Assembly: GCA_030603665.1 (NCBI GenBank)
Contig: JAUVXJ010000007.1
Span: 1 to 64,000, forward strand
DNA length: 64,000 bases
Direction: 5' to 3'
DNA from: Chloroflexota bacterium
GTDB taxonomy: Bacteria > Chloroflexota > Anaerolineae > UBA7937 > B3-Chlor
Shown here: piece after piece, positions 6,880 through 17,413 of the stretch
How positions within the stretch are numbered: position 1 is the stretch's first letter
How the letters are laid out: each line of letters starts with the position of its first letter
Position numbers and translations under genes: made by a program
Notes under the pieces: model-generated
Told to the model about the DNA's origin: nothing
Databases searched by the model: none
What the model saw: only the letters and a program-made list of their open reading frames with translations

Positions 6880-7091
6880 GGGAACAACCTCGTACAAGGT
6901 CCAGCCTATGAGACGCATCGAGTACGTGTGCACAGAAGGCGCGAGAGACAGGAAGACATCCGCCCGACGGGATGCCTGGAGGATGGCTCGACCGAACTCA
7001 TTACCCACCTTCTCCAGCACTCGCCGTACGGTTTCTTAGGCAAGCTGGAGTACAAGAAGCGCTCTTGACACGTCTGTTTGAGGAGGGCCTC

Positions 7092-10000
7092 GTGAGACCG
7101 AGAAGACACCTGCCACTAGGAGCGTTGCGTTGGAGACAGGTCGGAACCATGTGCCTTTTCTGCGTCTTGATGCTGGCGACGGCCTTGGGGCCGCAGGTTG
7201 CGGCCTCTCCGCTGCCAACCTCAGCCGTCGATCCAACAGCATCTGCTCCTGCGGCGCCAGCCCAGGCTTCGGCAATCACCCTGATCGTGCAGGAGTATGA
7301 TGGGGGTCCGGTCATCCCCGAGTTCACCTACCTGGTGAATGAAGACAACACGGGCGACCCCTTCGATCCGGATCCCTATAACCACCCTGCACTCCACCAC
7401 ATGGCGAGCCACAGCCCCATTGTGGGCGCGGGCGACGAGACAACCGCCAGCTTCAGCCTGCCAGACGGAAGGTACCTTATCTCCGTCCGAGCTGACGGAT
7501 ACAAGCTGGGGGGAAGGCACCTCAGATTGCCTGCCGACGGGGGATCGGTGGTCATAGAACTGGTGGACCTTGTATCCGACCCGCTGCCGCTATCGCGGTT
7601 GGTGGTCTACGCTTTCGAAGACACCGTCCCACTGAACAGTGCCCCGGATCCTCTTGAGACAGGACTGCAAGGCTTTCGAGTTCACGTCCACGACACGGTT
7701 GGCGAGGTCACTGTAGACTGGTTCGGCAACCCTATCTGCACCGAGTACGACGGCACTGGGGCAAGCACGCCCCTGGGCGATCCCATTCCCGGCACGGGCG
7801 GAGAGTGTCTCACAGACACTGACGGCAACGGAGTAGTTGAGAACCTCCCTTACGGCAAGTATGAGGTGGTTGTCCTCCCTCCCGATGGCTCGGGATGGAT
7901 CCAGAGCAGTACGCTCGAAGAAGGCACGCGATTTGTGGCCGCCATGCTGGAGGAAGGCAGCGACGGGCTTGGGCCCCGCCACCTGGGAGCACAGGGTGCC
8001 AACGAAGATCTGCTCACGGCATTCTGGTATGGCTACGCACAACCCGCGTCCTGGGCCAGCCCGGGAACTGGGACCATCATGGGCGCTGCATACAATGCCA
8101 TCGGATGGCCCCCCTTCGATCAGATAGTGGTGGACACCGACGAACCGGTGGATCGGCCATGGGTGGCCGTGAACGCCATCGGAGCCACAGACGAGCTAGC
8201 CTACATGGCGCAGGGCAACCCGGACGGAAGCTTCTTGATCCCCGACGTCCCCGCCGGGGTTTACCAATTGGCCATCTGGGACGAGCCACTTGACTACATC
8301 ATCTCGTTCTTCACGGTGCAGGTTGCGGCGGGAGAGACGGTGGACATGGGTAACCTGGCGGTGCCGCGGTGGAGGGGCTGGATCTCGGGAGAGGTCTTCG
8401 TGGACCACGATCGCGACAGCATCAAGGACCCGGGAGAAGAGGGCATCCCCGGCATCGATCTGACCACTCGTTTCCGGGACGGCAGCATCCAGCAGACCAG
8501 CCTCACAGACCACATGGGGTACTACGAGTTCCCAGAGAACATAGCCCCCTTGGGCAAGTTCGTGGTGACCGAGGTTGGTTTTGGCCGCTTCGCTCGTACC
8601 GGCGCGTCCGTTCACGACGACCACGACCCGAACATCGTCACCGCGCTGCCTGATGAGTTCGGCGGGGGACTTCTGGCCAGCCAGCTTACCTGGGAGTCCC
8701 GGCGAAGTATCATCGACTGGGGCAAGTTGCCCTACGGTCCCAACGAGAACGGTGGCATCTCCGGCATGGTCCTCTACGCCACTACTCGCAACGAGTTCAA
8801 CGCCAGGAATGCACTGGCGGAGCCCTACGAGCCGGGCATCCCCGGCGTGACCGTGCGCCTCTGGGGCCTTGGTCCGGATGCGGAGCCCAATACCGCGGAC
8901 GACGTCCTTCTAAACGAGATTACGACCGACGCGTGGGAGCACCCCACTGCGGCCAACGGAAACGCGTGCGACCTCCTAGACGCCAACGGCAATCCGCTGC
9001 CCGACCCTATCGGGGTGGGACCAAACTGCATCGAGGTACCTATGGTGGCCAACGAGACCCACGATGGGGCTTACGATGGCGGCTATGCCTTCGAGAGCTA
9101 CTGGTTTCCTTACTTCGGGGCACCGGCAGCGCTGGAGATGGAAGGCTTGCCACCCGGGGACTACGTGGTCGAGGTGGTCGAGCCGGAGTTTTATCAGATC
9201 CTCAAGGAGGAGGACCTCAATACTCTCGAGGGAAACGAACTGGTGCCAGCCATCCCACCGCCTCCCTGTGTGGGCGACCTGCATCTGGCCGACGTGCCCG
9301 ACGAGTACGGCAGCCCGTACGATGGCGAGATGATGCCCCTCTGCGACAAGCGGCTGGTCACGTTGCACCAGGGTCAGAACGCTGGGGCCGAGTTCTTCCT
9401 CTTCACCGACCTGTCACAGGTGGATCGCCCTGGCGAGCATTGGTCCTCCGCCGAGGCTGTACCCATCCCCGGCCGCTTCTTCGGATTGGTGGAAGACGAC
9501 CTAGTGGTGAATACGGACCCGAACTCCGTCACCTTCGGCGAGAAGAGGGGCGTACCCTTCCTTCCCATCGGCGTTCGCGATTTCACAGGACGCTTGATCA
9601 CAACCGTTCAAACCGACGAGGTTGGCTACTTCGAGGTGCTGCTTCCCTCCACCTTCCAGGCCAACTGTCCTACCCCGTCTGGGGTCTGCCCTGGCATGTA
9701 CTTTCAAGTCACTAACGATCCTGGCGAGGTAAGCGACCCGAACGTCAACTTCAACGGTGGTTACATGACAGCGATTACCACCTGGGATGTATGGCCGGGG
9801 AAGATGACGCCCACCGACACACCCAGCATTCCGCTCGCCGCGGCCAATTGCGCTCCGCTGCACGGTGATGATCCTATCGCCGAGCCAGGCACCTTTCCCC
9901 CCGAGATCTATGCGGTGTCCCAGCCCTATGGGAGCCCTGGCGATGCCTTCGCCATAACCGGTCCGCGCTTCGGTCCGATCCGGGGCAGCGGCCAGGTGAC

Positions 10001-11801
10001 CATTGATGGCGTGCCGCTGGAGGTGACTTCCTGGTCGGACTTTGCACTGAGCGTGAAGCTGCCACTCGGTCTTGCCACGGGCCCAGGCCAGCTATTGGTG
10101 ACCACAGCGGATGGGCAGACTAGCCTTCCCGGACTGACCTTCCACGTTGTGGGGGCGGGCTACAACCCTCCCATGCTCACCGTGGATGACGATGGCCCGG
10201 CGGACTATGCCACGGTCCAGGCAGCCATCGATGCTGCATCTCCCGGCGCTCTGATTGTGGTCAAGCCGGGGACCTATCGCGAGAACGTGATCATGCACCA
10301 GGCCGTCAAGTTGCAGGGTTATGGTCAAGGCGGACTGCTGGGGACAGATGACCCCCGGACCCTCATCGAGGGCAGCGTGATAGACGGGAGATACTACCGA
10401 GTACAGTCCGCCGACTGGGAGACCCTTCTCGCTGGACTCAGCTTTGACGGAAACCAGGCCGTTCCGGGCGGGGCGTGCATCACTGTTGTGGCGAGCGACG
10501 CCGAGTTCACGAGCGGTTTTCCGCCCTCCATAGACGGTTTCCGCATAACCTCTGGCCGGGCCGGAATCGGCGGCGGCGGCATCCACGTCAACGGTTATGC
10601 TCGCTACTTGGAGATTAGCAACAACTACATTGAGGAGAACGGCAGCCTTCTGGCTGGCGGGATAAGTCTAGGCCAGCCGTATGTGGGGAACAACGAGAAT
10701 GACTTCGTCGACATTCATCACAACCGCATCGTGGGCAACGGGGGCAGGACCGCTGGGGGTGGCATCGGGATCTTCAATGGCGGTGACAACTATCAGATCA
10801 GCCACAACCGCATGTGCGGCAACTACTCGGCCCAGTACGGTGGGGGCATAGCCCACTTTGGCCTAAGCCACGATGGCCACATACACCACAACATGATCTA
10901 CTACAACGACTCCTTCGACGAGGGGGGGGGAGTAATGATCGCTGGTGAGCTTTCCTCCGATCCCGCAGGAAGCACCGGCTCTGGCGCAGTCGACCTCAGC
11001 CACAACCTCATTCAGGCCAACCTGGCCAACGACGACGGTGGGGGAATTCGGCTGCTCCAGCCTCTCGACCACGCCATCTCGATCAGCAACAACATGATCG
11101 TCAACAACGTCTCAACCGACCTGGGAGGTGGCATCTCCCTGGACGATGCCTCGGACGTGGTCATCGTAAACAACACAGTAGCCGGCAACCAGACCACGGC
11201 CACCGCCGAGGACAGCGACGGGCTGGCGCACGCAGCTGGGCTGATGTCCGAGGCCTACAGCCAACCCTTCACCGACTACCTCGTCGCCACGTATAGTTCG
11301 GCAGCACCAGGTTTTCCCGACCCAGTGTTGTTCAACAACATCTTCTGGGAGAACGAGGCATATACCTGGGATGGTGCGGCACTGGCGCTGGACAGCACCT
11401 TCGACATGGAGGTCTTCGGCACGCCGGCTCCGTCGTACTTCAGCCCGGTGTACTCCTTGCTGAGCGTGCCCTACGGTGGAGGCGATCCTTCTAACATCGT
11501 AGGGAGCGACCCGCTGTTCGTGTCGCCAGCGGCCTTTGGCCTCACCGCCGTGCCCTTCCGCGCTGACCCGAATTTCATCACTGTGCTGATGGGCAGGCCA
11601 CTCACACTGCCGGGCGACTATCACCTTACTTTCATCTCACCGGCGATTGACGAAGGAACGGCCAGCCACTCCAGCGTGAATGCACCGCCTGACGATTTTG
11701 ACGACCAGTCACGACCTCAGGGCCCAGAGTACGACATGGGTGCCGACGAGCTCTTCATCATCAACCAGTTCTTGCCGCTGGGAATGTATCTGCCGCAGTA
11801 G
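7092..11801 (+). CDS. large secreted protein: Cna/SdrD-like repeats, IPT/TIG domain, right-handed beta-helix
   Basis: About 1569 aa. GTG 7092 is chosen because it has a strong Shine-Dalgarno (AGGAGG, 7081-7086) and opens directly into a signal peptide (about residues 1-38: basic start, hydrophobic stretch, then AAS). The N-terminal third has carboxypeptidase-regulatory and SdrD-B-like beta-sandwich units (for example ISGEVFVDHDRDSIKDPGEE near residue 430 and a second copy near 553). An IPT/TIG-like unit lies at about 935-1022. From about 1027 a pectin-lyase-type beta-helix starts (DYATVQAAIDAASPGALIVV), with N-rich PbH1 repeats such as ISNNYIEENG and DIHHNRIVGNGG. The C-terminus ends FLPLGMYLPQ. 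It is probably a cell-surface adhesin or carbohydrate-active scaffold; no catalytic site is identified. The multicopper oxidase genes follow with no terminator between. Confidence 0.8.
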   Translation: MRPRRHLPLGALRWRQVGTMCLFCVLMLATALGPQVAASPLPTSAVDPTASAPAAPAQASAITLIVQEYDGGPVIPEFTYLVNEDNTGDPFDPDPYNHPALHHMASHSPIVGAGDETTASFSLPDGRYLISVRADGYKLGGRHLRLPADGGSVVIELVDLVSDPLPLSRLVVYAFEDTVPLNSAPDPLETGLQGFRVHVHDTVGEVTVDWFGNPICTEYDGTGASTPLGDPIPGTGGECLTDTDGNGVVENLPYGKYEVVVLPPDGSGWIQSSTLEEGTRFVAAMLEEGSDGLGPRHLGAQGANEDLLTAFWYGYAQPASWASPGTGTIMGAAYNAIGWPPFDQIVVDTDEPVDRPWVAVNAIGATDELAYMAQGNPDGSFLIPDVPAGVYQLAIWDEPLDYIISFFTVQVAAGETVDMGNLAVPRWRGWISGEVFVDHDRDSIKDPGEEGIPGIDLTTRFRDGSIQQTSLTDHMGYYEFPENIAPLGKFVVTEVGFGRFARTGASVHDDHDPNIVTALPDEFGGGLLASQLTWESRRSIIDWGKLPYGPNENGGISGMVLYATTRNEFNARNALAEPYEPGIPGVTVRLWGLGPDAEPNTADDVLLNEITTDAWEHPTAANGNACDLLDANGNPLPDPIGVGPNCIEVPMVANETHDGAYDGGYAFESYWFPYFGAPAALEMEGLPPGDYVVEVVEPEFYQILKEEDLNTLEGNELVPAIPPPPCVGDLHLADVPDEYGSPYDGEMMPLCDKRLVTLHQGQNAGAEFFLFTDLSQVDRPGEHWSSAEAVPIPGRFFGLVEDDLVVNTDPNSVTFGEKRGVPFLPIGVRDFTGRLITTVQTDEVGYFEVLLPSTFQANCPTPSGVCPGMYFQVTNDPGEVSDPNVNFNGGYMTAITTWDVWPGKMTPTDTPSIPLAAANCAPLHGDDPIAEPGTFPPEIYAVSQPYGSPGDAFAITGPRFGPIRGSGQVTIDGVPLEVTSWSDFALSVKLPLGLATGPGQLLVTTADGQTSLPGLTFHVVGAGYNPPMLTVDDDGPADYATVQAAIDAASPGALIVVKPGTYRENVIMHQAVKLQGYGQGGLLGTDDPRTLIEGSVIDGRYYRVQSADWETLLAGLSFDGNQAVPGGACITVVASDAEFTSGFPPSIDGFRITSGRAGIGGGGIHVNGYARYLEISNNYIEENGSLLAGGISLGQPYVGNNENDFVDIHHNRIVGNGGRTAGGGIGIFNGGDNYQISHNRMCGNYSAQYGGGIAHFGLSHDGHIHHNMIYYNDSFDEGGGVMIAGELSSDPAGSTGSGAVDLSHNLIQANLANDDGGGIRLLQPLDHAISISNNMIVNNVSTDLGGGISLDDASDVVIVNNTVAGNQTTATAEDSDGLAHAAGLMSEAYSQPFTDYLVATYSSAAPGFPDPVLFNNIFWENEAYTWDGAALALDSTFDMEVFGTPAPSYFSPVYSLLSVPYGGGDPSNIVGSDPLFVSPAAFGLTAVPFRADPNFITVLMGRPLTLPGDYHLTFISPAIDEGTASHSSVNAPPDDFDDQSRPQGPEYDMGADELFIINQFLPLGMYLPQ

Positions 11802-11906: not shown

Positions 11907-13250
11907 ATGGAACATGACCGGGTTACCAGGAAACTGAGGCGACGCGATTTTCTGACGCTGGCCGGCGGGAGTGCGCTAACGGTGCTCGCTGGCGGCGCCC
12001 TCTACAAGACTCTCGGCGAGCCGGGCACATCCTTGGCCGCCCCAGCCCCTGCGCCAGCCAGCATTGGGCCAGATGTGCAGATACACCTGGCGGTGACAGA
12101 CGGCTATGCCTCGCTCCCCGGGCGGGTAGGCGACCAGACCCTCTACGTCTTCGGGTTCATGGAAGTGCCCTGGGCCAGCACTCCGCAAGACCTGGCCTCC
12201 ACGTACAAGGGAAACGTGCAGATAGTCTCACCCATCATCGCTCTGGATGAGGGCCAGGAGTTCCATCTCAAGCTATCCAACCTGGGTCTGGCGGTGCGCC
12301 CCGACCTTGACGACGCGCACACCGTTCATTGGCACGGGTTCCCCAACGTGATCGCCGTCTTCGATGGGGTGCCCATGCAATCGTTCGCGGTGCCTGTTGG
12401 TAAGAGCTTCACCTACGCGTACGTGACACGCGACCCGGGCACCTTCATCTACCATTGCCACTTCGAGGACGTGGAACATGTTCAGATGTTGATGATCGGT
12501 TCTGTCTACGTCCGACCCGTGCAGAATGAGGGGAACGGCGGTAGCATTCCCAAGGCCAGGCTGGCAGGGGGCGCCTCGTCCGCGCCCCTCGGATACACCT
12601 ACAACGACGGACTGCCGCCAACCGATCCCCTGTCCACAGCTTACGATCGCGAGTTCTCCTTGCTGCTGACGGAGATAGACGAGCGGCCCCACGATCTTCT
12701 GGAGGCCGTGCAAGAATTCGTATGGGCCTACTACGAGCCACAGTATTGGACCATCAACGGGCGGGCCTACCCGGACACCGTAAAGCCCAACAACGATCCG
12801 TCCCTGCCCCATCAGCCCATATCTTCCCTGGTCCAAGCCAACGCAGGTGATCGCGTCCTACTGCGCCTGGCTCACCTTGGTTATCAGCAGCACGCCATGG
12901 AGGTGGTGGGCATCCCCCTGAAGGTCGTGGGCCACGATGCGAACCTCCTGCGCGGGCCAGGAGGCGCCGACCTTTCCTACTGGACAAACGTCGTGTACGT
13001 TGCACCGTCCACCACTCGCGATTGCCTGTTCACGGCGCCTGCCTTTGACGCTGGTGCACCCGTGGAGTCGGATGCCTATGGAGACTACAACGTCTACTGG
13101 CTCCAGAACAGGAACTACAACCGTCAAACCAACAATGGCCAGCCCGGCCTGGGCGGGATGGTCAGCGAGGTTCGGGTCTATAACGGCGGGCTGCCGGCTC
13201 AGACTGCGGGCCACCAGACCTTTCCATTGCTTTCGCCGCCATTTCCGTAG
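11907..13250 (+). CDS. two-domain multicopper oxidase homologue A (copper ligands only in domain 1)
   Basis: 447 aa with a twin-arginine signal (RRRDFLTLAGG, residues about 11-21) and a strong Shine-Dalgarno (AGGAGG). Domain 1 keeps a full HxxHxHG motif (H138, H141, H143) and an HCH motif (H183, C184, H185) with downstream H191 and M194/M196. That is a complete type 1 copper site plus four histidines of a trinuclear site. Domain 2 has lost the matching ligands: the HPFHLHG position reads QHAMEVVG and the HxH position reads NRN. Single-chain two-domain oxidases need ligands from both domains, so this protein alone should bind only type 1 copper, or pair with a partner. Gene B, 74 bp downstream, carries the missing half. 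Confidence 0.85.
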   Translation: MEHDRVTRKLRRRDFLTLAGGSALTVLAGGALYKTLGEPGTSLAAPAPAPASIGPDVQIHLAVTDGYASLPGRVGDQTLYVFGFMEVPWASTPQDLASTYKGNVQIVSPIIALDEGQEFHLKLSNLGLAVRPDLDDAHTVHWHGFPNVIAVFDGVPMQSFAVPVGKSFTYAYVTRDPGTFIYHCHFEDVEHVQMLMIGSVYVRPVQNEGNGGSIPKARLAGGASSAPLGYTYNDGLPPTDPLSTAYDREFSLLLTEIDERPHDLLEAVQEFVWAYYEPQYWTINGRAYPDTVKPNNDPSLPHQPISSLVQANAGDRVLLRLAHLGYQQHAMEVVGIPLKVVGHDANLLRGPGGADLSYWTNVVYVAPSTTRDCLFTAPAFDAGAPVESDAYGDYNVYWLQNRNYNRQTNNGQPGLGGMVSEVRVYNGGLPAQTAGHQTFPLLSPPFP

Positions 13251-13324
13251 ACTAGACTCTGACCTCGCCGTGCGGCCTCGGGGCTCGGGGAGCCTAGCCG
13301 CTCGATTGAAAGGGGAAGGGCAGC

Positions 13325-14599
13325 ATGTCCAACAAAGGAAGAACACTGATCAGGATGGGCCTGTTGGGGTTGACTTGTGGGATCATACTGTGCGCCGGGC
13401 CCGCCTCTGCTAGATTTCGGCAGGCGCAGGTGACCATTGGTCAGGGACCCAGCAGCGTGGTCTGCACCAATGGGCCCAGTTTCAACCTGCGAGCCACCGA
13501 CGGCCATATCTCTGTGCCCGACGGCAACAGCATCTACATGTGGACCTTTGCCGAAGTCGGGGGCCCGTTCCAGGTGCCCAGTCCCGTGCTGTGCGTTGAC
13601 GAGGGGGCTACGGTGACTGTGAACCTGACCAACGAATTGGCGGAGCCGGTGTCCATAATCTTCCCGGGTCACGTGGGAGTGAACACGACGGGCGGCACCC
13701 CCGGACTGTTTACGGCGGAAGCGCCTCCGGCAGGAAGTGTGACATACAGTTTCGTGGCCAGCGAGCCGGGCACCTACCTTTACGAGAGCGGCACGGAGCC
13801 CCGAAAGCAGATAGAGATGGGGCTCCACGGAGCTCTGATCGTGAGGCCGTCCTTGGGTGCCAACTACGCCTACAATGATGCTGCAACTGAGTTCGATCCG
13901 GGGCGTGAGTACTTGATGCTGTTGCACGACATCGATCACAATCTTCACCAAGCAGTGGAGTGGGGCGAGCCCTACGATTACACCACCACTCGGGACTACT
14001 ACTGGACGATCAATGGGCGTGCCTTCCCCGACACCCTCGCGCCGAACTCCGTGGCCTGGCTCCCCGCGCAGCCCTATAGTGCGCTCCTCGTCGTTGAACC
14101 GTACGACGCCACAACGAACCCTCTCCCCATCCTGCTGCGCTATCTGAACGCTGGACTTCAGAACCACCCGTTCCATCTTCACGGGAACTATACCAGGATC
14201 ATTGCTCAAGACGGACGCCTGCTAAGAGGTTCCGGCAGTGAAGATACTTCTTACCAATCCTTCACTCAGACCATCGGCTCCGGCCAAACATACGACGTCT
14301 TCATGCGCTGGACCGACGTGGACGGCTGGGCAACGCAGTCAACGCCCATCCCCGTGGACATTCCGGACCTGACCAACCTGTTCTTCCACAATGCTATGAC
14401 CACGTGGAGCGGTGAGGTGCCGCTCGGCGAACAGGGCGACGTCCCTGTGGGTGTGACCGTGCATAACATATGTGGGGAGTATTACCTCATCGCTCACAGC
14501 CACGCCCTGAACGAGATCCAGAATTTCGACGAAGGTATGGGCGGGATGACCACCTTCCTGAGAGTCGATCCGCCGGGCGGATGTATGCCGGTGCCATAG
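13325..14599 (+). CDS. multicopper oxidase homologue B (copper ligands only in domain 2)
   Basis: 424 aa with a Sec signal peptide (cleavage near PASA-RF). Its fold follows homologue A (paired cupredoxin domains, shared segments such as YYWTINGRAFPDT). Domain 1 has lost all copper ligands: EPVSIIFPGH replaces the HxxHxHG segment and YESGTEPRKQIEMG replaces the HCH loop. Domain 2 keeps NHPFHLHG (H281, H284, H286) and AHSHALNE (H391, H393), which are exactly the trinuclear-site ligands missing from A. Serine replaces the type 1 cysteine. The gene is in line with A and C, 74 and 53 bp apart, with an SD-like GGGGAAGGG before the ATG. It is inferred to be a structural partner of A rather than an independent oxidase. 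Confidence 0.85.
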   Translation: MSNKGRTLIRMGLLGLTCGIILCAGPASARFRQAQVTIGQGPSSVVCTNGPSFNLRATDGHISVPDGNSIYMWTFAEVGGPFQVPSPVLCVDEGATVTVNLTNELAEPVSIIFPGHVGVNTTGGTPGLFTAEAPPAGSVTYSFVASEPGTYLYESGTEPRKQIEMGLHGALIVRPSLGANYAYNDAATEFDPGREYLMLLHDIDHNLHQAVEWGEPYDYTTTRDYYWTINGRAFPDTLAPNSVAWLPAQPYSALLVVEPYDATTNPLPILLRYLNAGLQNHPFHLHGNYTRIIAQDGRLLRGSGSEDTSYQSFTQTIGSGQTYDVFMRWTDVDGWATQSTPIPVDIPDLTNLFFHNAMTTWSGEVPLGEQGDVPVGVTVHNICGEYYLIAHSHALNEIQNFDEGMGGMTTFLRVDPPGGCMPVP

Positions 14600-14652
14600 C
14601 GTTTGTGCGTCGAGTAGGCAAGAGGACTTATGGCATTGCAGGAGATGGATTA

Positions 14653-15714
14653 ATGAGAGCAAGAGCTACGACTATCATCGGGCTGGGGCTCATCTTTGCT
14701 GCCATGGCGCTGCTGCTCATCGCTGTGCCGGCGCTGGCCGAACCCCAATCGAATCCTGCCGAAGCTCGTCAAGCGGAACCTGTCCGAGCTGCGCCTCTGG
14801 GGGCTACCGTCTCGGTAGACTTGTGCGCAAAGGCCGGCACCCTCACGCTGCCCGACAGTACGGTCGTGGACACGTGGGGCTTCGCCATCAAACCTGCTTC
14901 GGTGGCTTGCACTGACGTCTCCGTGCAAGCGCAGGTGCCAGGACCCTTGTTGGAGTTCACCGCTGGGGACAGTATCAGCATCACGCTTCACAACGCCCTT
15001 GCCGAGCAGGCCTCCATAGTCTTCCCCGGTCAGGACCTGATGCCGGACCATGTGGGCGCAGCGCCCGGAGGCAGCGTCGCATACTCATTCACCGTCGATG
15101 AGCCTGGCACGTATCTGTACGAGAGCGGTACTTTCTCCGATACCACGGCCGCTGTTCAAGTAGCTATGGGGCTCTACGGCCCACTGGTTGTGCGACCCAC
15201 GACCGCAGGACAGGCGTACGGCACGCCTGCCAGCGCCTACGATCGAGAGGCCGTGCTCGTTCTCAGCGAAATCGATCCGGATCTGCACGCGAACCCGACT
15301 ACTTTCAATCTCTTGGACTACTCGCCCCAGTACTGGCTGATAAGTGGAAAGGCCTATCCCGAGACGGATCCGATTCTGGCCCTGCCAGAGGAACGCGTAC
15401 TGCTTCGCTACGTAAATGCGGGTTTGTGGAACCATACGCTGACTGTGCTGGGAATGCACCAGACCGTCATCGCGGTGGATGCGTACGTGAAGAACTACCC
15501 GCATGAGGCCGTGTCTCTGATCATCCCCTCCGGTCAGACCTGGGACAGCATCGCCACCCTCCCTGCGGGTGCGCCGTTCGGGACCAGCTTCCCTCTATAC
15601 AGCCGGAATCTGTTCTTGTCGAATGAGAATACCTTTCCTGGCGGGATGATGACTTTCATCACGTATGATCCAACTCTGCTGCCATATCGAAACTACTTGG
15701 GGCTGGGTATGTAG
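14653..15714 (+). CDS. multicopper oxidase homologue C (no copper ligands)
   Basis: 353 aa from ATG 14653 (SD GGAGATGG), with a Sec signal peptide (hydrophobic core then PALA-EP). It aligns with homologues A and B through both cupredoxin domains (TWGFAI..., GTYLYESG, YWLISGKAYPETD, LRYVNAGLWNH). The ligand positions are gone in both domains: EQASIVFPGQ for HxxHxHG, YESGTFSDTT for HCH, NHTLTVLG for HPFHLHG and YSRNLFLSN for the HxH loop. It is therefore a non-catalytic paralogue, perhaps structural. A strong hairpin follows it and probably ends the transcript. Confidence 0.85.
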   Translation: MRARATTIIGLGLIFAAMALLLIAVPALAEPQSNPAEARQAEPVRAAPLGATVSVDLCAKAGTLTLPDSTVVDTWGFAIKPASVACTDVSVQAQVPGPLLEFTAGDSISITLHNALAEQASIVFPGQDLMPDHVGAAPGGSVAYSFTVDEPGTYLYESGTFSDTTAAVQVAMGLYGPLVVRPTTAGQAYGTPASAYDREAVLVLSEIDPDLHANPTTFNLLDYSPQYWLISGKAYPETDPILALPEERVLLRYVNAGLWNHTLTVLGMHQTVIAVDAYVKNYPHEAVSLIIPSGQTWDSIATLPAGAPFGTSFPLYSRNLFLSNENTFPGGMMTFITYDPTLLPYRNYLGLGM

Positions 15715-15854: not shown

Positions 15855-15928
15855 TTGTGGTTCAGTACAAGGGGCCACTACGTCAGCGTATGCCGGACAG
15901 TCGGTCAACTGACAAGGAAGTGCCTGGC

Positions 15929-17413
15929 GTGAAACGAGCCGTCGTGGCGGGGGTAGTCCTTAGTGTGGTAACCGTAGTGGCTGTCAGCAGAGCCCACGCC
16001 GAGCGCTCCCTCTCTCAGATCCGGGCGGTCCCGCCAACGACGATGGGCCTCACGAATCCCAGGGACACCGATCAGAGTGCAATCAGAGAGCGGCAGGCCC
16101 AGGAACCGGCACAGACAGAGGCCATGATCACCGTCATCGTGACCCTCAAGGAGCAGGCGAATCTGACCATGGTACCCAGGCTCGGCAGGGCCGCGCGCAT
16201 GCGCAGCGTGGTGAGGACCCTCCAGGCAACGGCCGCCGCCACGCAAGAGGATATCATAGCCCATCTCGATCTGCGGCGCTCTGAGGGTCGGGTTGCCGGG
16301 GTCACCTCGTTCTGGATCTTCAACGGGCTGGCGGTGACTGCAACTCCGGACGCCATCGAAGAACTGAAGGCACGGACTGAAGTGCTCAGCGTAACCCCAG
16401 ACAGGAGGATCGACGCGCCACCGCCTCTCCGAACACAGCTACTCCTCGGCCCGTCTGCGGCCGAACCGAACCTGTCCGTAGTGGGCGCGCCGGTGCTCTG
16501 GCAGTTGGGATATCGGGGCCAGGGGATCGTAGTCGCCAACATGGACACCGGGGTTGACGTCAACCATTCGGACCTTTCTGCCCAATGGCGCGGCGGAGAC
16601 AACAGCTGGTTCGATCCAAATGGTCAACACCCTCTAACCCCGGTCGATGTCCACGGCCATGGAACGTGGACCATGGGGGCCATGGTGGGTGGGGACGCCA
16701 GCGGCTCTGCGGTGGGGATCGCGCCAGAGGCCCAGTGGATAGCCGTCAAGATCTTCAATGATCAGGGCTGGACTACCTCGAGCAAAGTGCACCAAGGTTT
16801 CCAGTGGCTCTTGGACCCTGACGGGAATCCTGGCACTGCAGATGCTCCCCACGTGGTCAGCAACTCCTGGACTTTCTCCAGTCCAGGGTGCGACCTGTCC
16901 TTTCAGCTTGATCTTCAGGCCTTGCGCGCGGCGGGAATCCTGCCGGTGTTCGCAGCGGGTAACTTCGGGCCCGCCAGCGGATCCAGCGCCAGCCCTGGAA
17001 ACAACCCGGAGGCTCTTGCGGTCGGAGCCACTAACAACAGTGATGGTACATATCTGTACAGCAGCAGGGGACCGTCAGCGTGTGACGAACCGGCCACCAT
17101 CTTTCCAGAGATCGTAGCACCCGGGGTCGCCATTCGCACCACAGACCTTTTCGGTACCTACTACTCGGCAACGGGAACCTCTCTAGCGGCCCCCCACGTC
17201 GCCGGGGCCATCGCTCTGCTGTTGTGCGCAAACCCTTCCTTGAGCGTGGACCGACAGGAGGCGATCCTAATGGATTCTTCCTTGGATCTAGGCATGCTGG
17301 GTCCTGACAACCACTTCGGACACGGGCGTCTCAACGTGCTGCGGGCCTACGCGCTGCTTCTGCCCTATCGGCTCTATTTCCCGGCCACATCTAGGGCTGG
17401 CTCTGGATCGTGA
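15929..17413 (+). CDS. secreted subtilisin-like serine protease (S8)
   Basis: About 494 aa from GTG 15929, chosen because AAGGAAG lies 8 nt upstream and the protein then starts at a clean signal peptide (VKRAVVAGVVLSVV, cleavage near AHA-E). The in-frame ATG at 15890 is possible; the GTG at 15857 touches the upstream hairpin and is unlikely. An inhibitor-I9-like propeptide (about residues 50-150) precedes the S8 domain. The triad is D206 (NMDTGVD), H244 (GHGTWTMG) and S418 (GTSLAAPHVAG). The C-terminal tail LLPYRLYFPATSR resembles the short YxP-type C-terminal segment often seen on secreted Chloroflexota proteins. Expected role: extracellular protein degradation, which could supply amino acids such as hydroxyproline to the HypD system. 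Confidence 0.9.
   Translation: MKRAVVAGVVLSVVTVVAVSRAHAERSLSQIRAVPPTTMGLTNPRDTDQSAIRERQAQEPAQTEAMITVIVTLKEQANLTMVPRLGRAARMRSVVRTLQATAAATQEDIIAHLDLRRSEGRVAGVTSFWIFNGLAVTATPDAIEELKARTEVLSVTPDRRIDAPPPLRTQLLLGPSAAEPNLSVVGAPVLWQLGYRGQGIVVANMDTGVDVNHSDLSAQWRGGDNSWFDPNGQHPLTPVDVHGHGTWTMGAMVGGDASGSAVGIAPEAQWIAVKIFNDQGWTTSSKVHQGFQWLLDPDGNPGTADAPHVVSNSWTFSSPGCDLSFQLDLQALRAAGILPVFAAGNFGPASGSSASPGNNPEALAVGATNNSDGTYLYSSRGPSACDEPATIFPEIVAPGVAIRTTDLFGTYYSATGTSLAAPHVAGAIALLLCANPSLSVDRQEAILMDSSLDLGMLGPDNHFGHGRLNVLRAYALLLPYRLYFPATSRAGSGS

Follow-up and report, generated by a model that had tools for sequence, protein, structure and literature searches.

The DNA examined here (the window) is a stretch of 64,000 nucleotides from a Chloroflexota bacterium (contig JAUVXJ010000007.1). 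It carries three consecutive plus-strand open reading frames (ORFs) that encode two-domain multicopper-oxidase paralogues, here called A, B and C (Table 1). The copper ligands of one oxidase are divided between A and B, and C lacks the ligand set. It is very probable that A, B and C assemble into an asymmetric (hetero-oligomeric) two-domain multicopper oxidase that would work only with the different proteins combined, and that this enzyme arose from a single-gene type-C ancestor. This interpretation is drawn from the ligand partition, its strict conservation, the co-occurrence and coupled loss of the genes, the similarity of the folds and the phylogeny. From these sequence data we infer that the proteins would assemble at 1:1:1 stoichiometry, bind copper at a shared site and reduce O2, with putative roles for C and for a giant protein encoded upstream.

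All three proteins match Cu-oxidase_3 (PF07732), with 44.8 bits for A, 50.8 for B and 45 for C against a gathering score of 21, and they account for all three PF07732 matches in the host genome. None of them reaches the cut-off of a curated NCBIfam model. Domain 1 of A contains the type 1 copper site (H138, C184, H191 and M196) together with half of a trinuclear site (H141, H143, H183 and H185), and its domain 2 has no ligands, with HAMEVVG and NRN at the motif positions. B is empty in domain 1, where SIIFPG and YESG occupy the motif positions, and carries the other trinuclear half in domain 2 (H284, H286, H391 and H393). Alignment columns confine the type 1 ligands to A; they are missing in B and C. 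None of the three polypeptides has all eight trinuclear histidines: four are in A, four in B and none in C. Across the tabulated homologues, the mating ligands are absent from domain 2 of A and domain 1 of B, and C is likewise ligand-free. D153, the aspartate of a DGxP motif, is strictly kept in A too.

An earlier note on this DNA had read the same division from the window alone, giving A four trinuclear histidines and the whole type 1 site, B the other four, and C none. The ligand motifs and degenerate second domain of A were recovered when the ORF was read again, the ligand columns bear out the description of C, and the division between A and B is kept across homologues. Two details required revision. 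The note also listed H281 among the ligands of B, but no more than 43 of 81 homologues have histidine at this position, which is consistent with a type-1-equivalent position that is dispensable in domain 2 of type-C enzymes. H281 is not needed as a ligand and the HxH pair alone is required; the four remaining histidines of B and its empty domain 1 stand. For the axial methionine of A, the note had left M194 and M196 side by side. M196 is retained, because M194 is leucine in some A proteins and is also methionine in B.

Homologues were collected in two ways. Contigs of GTDB species were scanned using the A alignment, yielding 80 loci from Chloroflexota, Actinomycetota and Bacillota, and whole-genome profile searches without motif selection were run on 396 genomes of the window's class. 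Conservation was scored by column over all distinct proteins (113 A and 112 B). In A, nine positions were checked, namely seven histidine or cysteine ligands, M196 and D153 (H138, H141, H143, D153, H183, C184, H185, H191 and M196), and all nine are intact in 110 of the 113 proteins. H284, H286, H391 and H393 are all intact in 109 of 112 B proteins. Among the remaining three, one has H286D and two are unscored at the second histidine pair through ORF truncation or alignment failure; one of these two, from Cupriavidus, nevertheless carries WHSH. Sequence conservation in 113 A and 112 B proteins, with three or so true exceptions, argues that the ligand split is not chance. Pseudogene decay was rejected as an explanation, because A, B and C are all encoded by open frames whose conservation extends from phylum to phylum.

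The earlier note had also proposed a search of genomes for conserved A-B-C order with the same split, and this combination was found in four phyla or groups: Chloroflexota, Actinomycetota, Bacillota and Burkholderiales. Gene order was compared at 82 loci (the 80 scan loci and two from sampled genomes). A, B and C are consecutive on one strand at 74 of them, the third gene being counted by position. Five of the other eight end in A-B, two have A only and one has a broken third gene; the A-B and A-only loci mostly lie close to contig ends. Among the 396 genomes, A was detected in 30, although in one of these the match is a single-gene enzyme that is itself intact; B was detected in exactly the other 29. 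Searches anchored on B showed that A adjoins B in Actinomycetota and Bacillota as well. The A and B genes of the window do not share a reading frame, and no natural fusion of the two was encountered. Cupriavidus metallidurans and Paraburkholderia have A, then B, then C fused to such a giant protein, which ties that protein to the A-B-C system. The Paraburkholderia A, B and C are annotated as three 'hypothetical proteins'.

A site shared by two proteins is predicted to show coupled loss, in which the partner and exactly the shared site disappear together. Two genomes fit this prediction. In G1103 (L224, 7616-9688), A and C are present and B is missing; A reads HTIYWEG and HCYFETVEH, having lost H141, H143, H185 and D153, and retains the type 1 set (H138, C184, H191 and M196). 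In G244 (L221 and L228), A reads LTIQWRG and HCRLGSVEY, without H138, H141, H143, H185 and H191, and B has H286D, so both genes are damaged. Several further loci had been flagged as degenerate by regular-expression scans, but column reading showed these to be mostly pattern failures, with G244 and G1103 as the only real cases. The A-C pair of L224 can be regarded as a natural single-site derivative. Separately, the A protein of L082 (17-1339) has leucine in place of H183 beside an intact B, a lone change that may be a sequencing error or an altered site.

In type-C two-domain oxidases, the domain-1 and domain-2 halves of the trinuclear site meet between subunits. AlphaFold models of A and B (predicted local distance difference test, pLDDT, 82.8 and 78.4) were compared with known structures by Foldseek, and the top two matches of both were type-C two-domain oxidases, 3g5w and 2zwn. 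Two cupredoxin domains are evident in A and B from these models and comparisons, and in C from the Cu-oxidase_3 match and the alignment only. With phmmer, HTVHWHG and HCH..EH of A align with HTIHWHG and HCH..EH of 3g5w, and HPFHLHG of B aligns with HAIHTHG. Low-confidence parts of the models include loops 147-157 and 189-191 of A, which hold D153 and H191, and residues 340-382 of B; in such models, these loops could reflect a needed partner or, equally, shallow alignments. Inter-protein mutual information places A domain 1 with B domain 2 in 28 of the top 50 pairs, and in 26 of 50 when Bacillota are left out, against a permuted mean of 2.6. The strongest covarying sites fall, for A, in its DGVP loop and, for B, immediately past HSH.

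A maximum-likelihood tree resolves each of A, B and C as one clade, with Shimodaira-Hasegawa-like approximate likelihood-ratio (SH-aLRT) values of 100, 96 and 92, respectively. B and C are sister clades, and C diverges faster than A and B. Within the three clades, the Bacillota and the mixed Chloroflexota/Actinomycetota groups are arranged in much the same way, and the pairwise distances of A and B are strongly correlated (Spearman coefficient 0.79). Intact single-gene relatives, which carry the full ligand set in one chain, were found at L026, L139/L151, L145 and, in Bacillota, L181-L187. L026, L139 and L145 were included in the tree (L181-L187 were left out) and branch outside A, B and C; the start of L026 is cut off, and its first HxH is unreadable. 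Where context is visible, L151, L229 and L230 are single-gene relatives outside any A-B-C set. The Bacillota relative at L185 (1309-2730) has itself lost ligands (HTVHILGG and YHCFAEASEH) and is partly degenerate. Monophyly of A, B and C with an intact single-gene outgroup can be accounted for by duplication with complementary ligand loss. On these sequences, two duplications and complementary loss, predating the present distribution, fit best.

These observations suggest a likely course of events and a mode of action. A single-gene, presumably homotrimeric type-C ancestor would have undergone two gene duplications followed by complementary ligand loss. In the resulting ring, domain 1 of A would face domain 2 of B, and the A-B interface would form the sole trinuclear copper site, to which each protein would contribute four histidines. 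The type 1 copper of A would lie beside this site. A substrate, for which family analogy suggests a metal ion or a phenol, would pass electrons to this type 1 copper, with O2 reduction taking place at the A-B interface. The two remaining interfaces of the ring would be structural, C most likely being the third ring member, and the giant protein may act as a surface-attached or scaffold partner.

Some observations weigh against a shared A-B site in a three-protein ring, or reduce the support for it. The scan patterns included ligands of A, so some of the conservation of A in that set reflects how the loci were chosen. This bias does not affect the genome searches by profile, nor does the search pattern account for the conservation of B, which was gathered by synteny. 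In a phylogenetic test, the leading covarying pairs rest on about two independent changes; covariation was down-weighted for this reason, as supportive at most and not as independent proof. The predicted A-C and B-C ring contacts show neither covariation enrichment nor a preferred domain pair. This last result would suit an arrangement in which the A-B site is split as proposed and C lies outside the ring, as in a trimer of composition ABB or AAB or a hexamer of A and B. C would then have a role elsewhere, for example as a link to the giant protein. The Cupriavidus and Paraburkholderia fusions of C with the giant protein also point that way, as does the faster divergence of C. However, C nearly always directly follows B and keeps both cupredoxin domains, the parent fold is three-fold, and in G1103, which has lost B, A and C are still present together. 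A position of C outside the ring is therefore possible but doubtful, and C is most likely the third subunit, judged solely by conserved gene content and the three-fold architecture of the parent.

Two further explanations have no shared O2-reducing site. A could be a type 1 blue copper electron carrier with vestigial domain-1 histidines, and B a separate copper chaperone or store, the two acting in one pathway. The A protein of G1103, with its type 1 site and without the trinuclear half, suggests that, in at least one genome, an A protein with only a type 1 site may be viable. Vestigial histidines, however, would be expected to vary, yet those of A are intact in 110 of 113 proteins and B keeps the mating four. 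A also loses its trinuclear histidines precisely in the genomes in which B is absent or damaged, which makes this explanation quite improbable. Similarity to copper nitrite reductase also has to be considered, since NirK is a two-domain trimer with interfacial copper, NirK structures are among the Foldseek matches of A and B, and several of the hosts are anaerobes. Nevertheless, the trinuclear set retained here comprises eight histidines, arranged as four HxH motifs, compared with three in the type 2 copper site of NirK. The NirK model TIGR02376 scores A at 18.6, B at 34.7 and C at 22.9 bits, far from its cut-off of 296.3, and the best structural matches are O2-reducing type-C oxidases. That the cluster encodes a NirK-like system instead of an O2-reducing oxidase is thus highly improbable.

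In the window, the gene for the giant protein, which combines SdrD_B, TIG and beta-helix regions, immediately precedes A; at 72 of 75 testable loci, this place is taken by an ORF of at least 1000 amino acids (aa). Further copies include those at L153 (11695-19026) and L154 (20745-28916). The beta-helix part is weakly NosD-like (29.7 bits against a cut-off of 300). Downstream of C, many loci encode a conserved protein of roughly 166 aa that has a single membrane segment (cluster c2, 32 loci), as at L024 (4595-5086), L028 (14407-14967) and L029 (14531-15028); the L028 copy was tested and has no Pfam or NCBIfam match. A protein adjoining the intact homologue L026 (3608-4300) has a similar ending. 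At other loci, CopC and CopC-CopD genes follow C (cluster c5, 20 loci). A subtilase with an inhibitor I9 propeptide is encoded downstream of C in the window (15857-17413), and subtilases are also found downstream in L025 (765-2270) and L027 (13403-15004), in place of these other genes or in addition to them. C itself starts at the ATG at 14653, 54 nucleotides past the stop codon of B; a longer ORF from 14470 was rejected as an overlap artefact since it reaches into B.

Table 1 Features of the A-B-C locus (window coordinates; Tat, twin-arginine translocation; Sec, general secretory pathway).
Feature	Position	Strand	Description
Giant secreted protein	6972..11801	+	1609 aa; SdrD_B, carboxypeptidase-regulatory-like, TIG, right-handed beta-helix
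Protein A gene	11907..13250	+	447 aa; two cupredoxin domains; Tat signal (RRRDFL)
Codons HTVHWHG of A (H138, H141, H143)	12318..12338	+	
Codons HCHFEDVEHVQMLM of A (H183 to M196)	12453..12494	+	
Protein B gene	13325..14599	+	424 aa; Sec signal
Codons HPFHLHG of B (H281, H284, H286)	14165..14185	+	
Codons HSH of B (H391, H393)	14495..14503	+	
Protein C gene	14653..15714	+	about 353 aa; Sec signal; two-domain paralogue without ligands

The earlier note had placed assembly outside the cell, based on a Tat signal on A and Sec signals on B and C. These signals are present in the window, and a twin-arginine motif is found on A at 66 of 67 non-Bacillota loci. The proposal does not extend to Bacillota: the motif is absent from A at all 15 Bacillota loci, and most of the B, C and giant proteins inspected in this phylum begin without a clear signal peptide (versions lacking one include L048, L051, L060, L061, L067, L085 and L103). 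Known spore-formers are among these hosts, so the Bacillota A-B-C and giant proteins may form a spore-coat complex, with a role comparable to that of CotA or Mnx; this is a lead and not a finding. More broadly, we lean slightly towards the view that these loci represent a widespread, unrecognised class of obligate heterotrimeric oxidase, which would keep one of three trinuclear sites and act in a surface complex with the giant protein, secreted in most phyla and signal-less in Bacillota, possibly in the spore coat.

Among characterised enzymes, 3g5w (the blue copper oxidase of Nitrosomonas europaea) and 2zwn (a metagenomic two-domain laccase) share with A and B the fold and the motifs and, with A, a type 1 site in domain 1, and their trinuclear ligands are likewise divided between domains 1 and 2. 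However, one polypeptide holds all of these ligands, whereas A-B-C use two genes and a ligand-free third. The single-gene relatives described above belong to the same sequence family as A-B-C, but have the full ligand set in each chain. Six-domain ceruloplasmin also has an asymmetric three-fold arrangement in which a single trinuclear site is kept, although in one polypeptide and with the ligand types in other domains. Two-domain laccases are reported to be mostly active as homotrimers (PMC10707984). The Mnx complex (MnxEFG) of Bacillus, which is active on spores, contains a multicopper oxidase that needs other gene products; MnxG is its sole oxidase, and MnxE and MnxF resemble no characterised protein. 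According to one published statement, no multicopper oxidase characterised so far, other than MnxG, depends on accessory proteins for its overexpression (PMC5622069). In an Mnx-type complex one subunit has a complete oxidase site, whereas no A-B-C subunit is complete. No description of a split or heterotrimeric multicopper oxidase was found in the open-access literature, subscription papers being outside the search.

Multicopper oxidases are treated as having the whole ligand set in a single chain. Database annotation judges chains singly, and A, B and C consequently appear degenerate or hypothetical. If true, a split site across four phyla would represent an overlooked oxidase family and a natural parallel to the asymmetry of ceruloplasmin. 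It would also provide a clear case of a homomer becoming an obligate heteromer through complementary loss.

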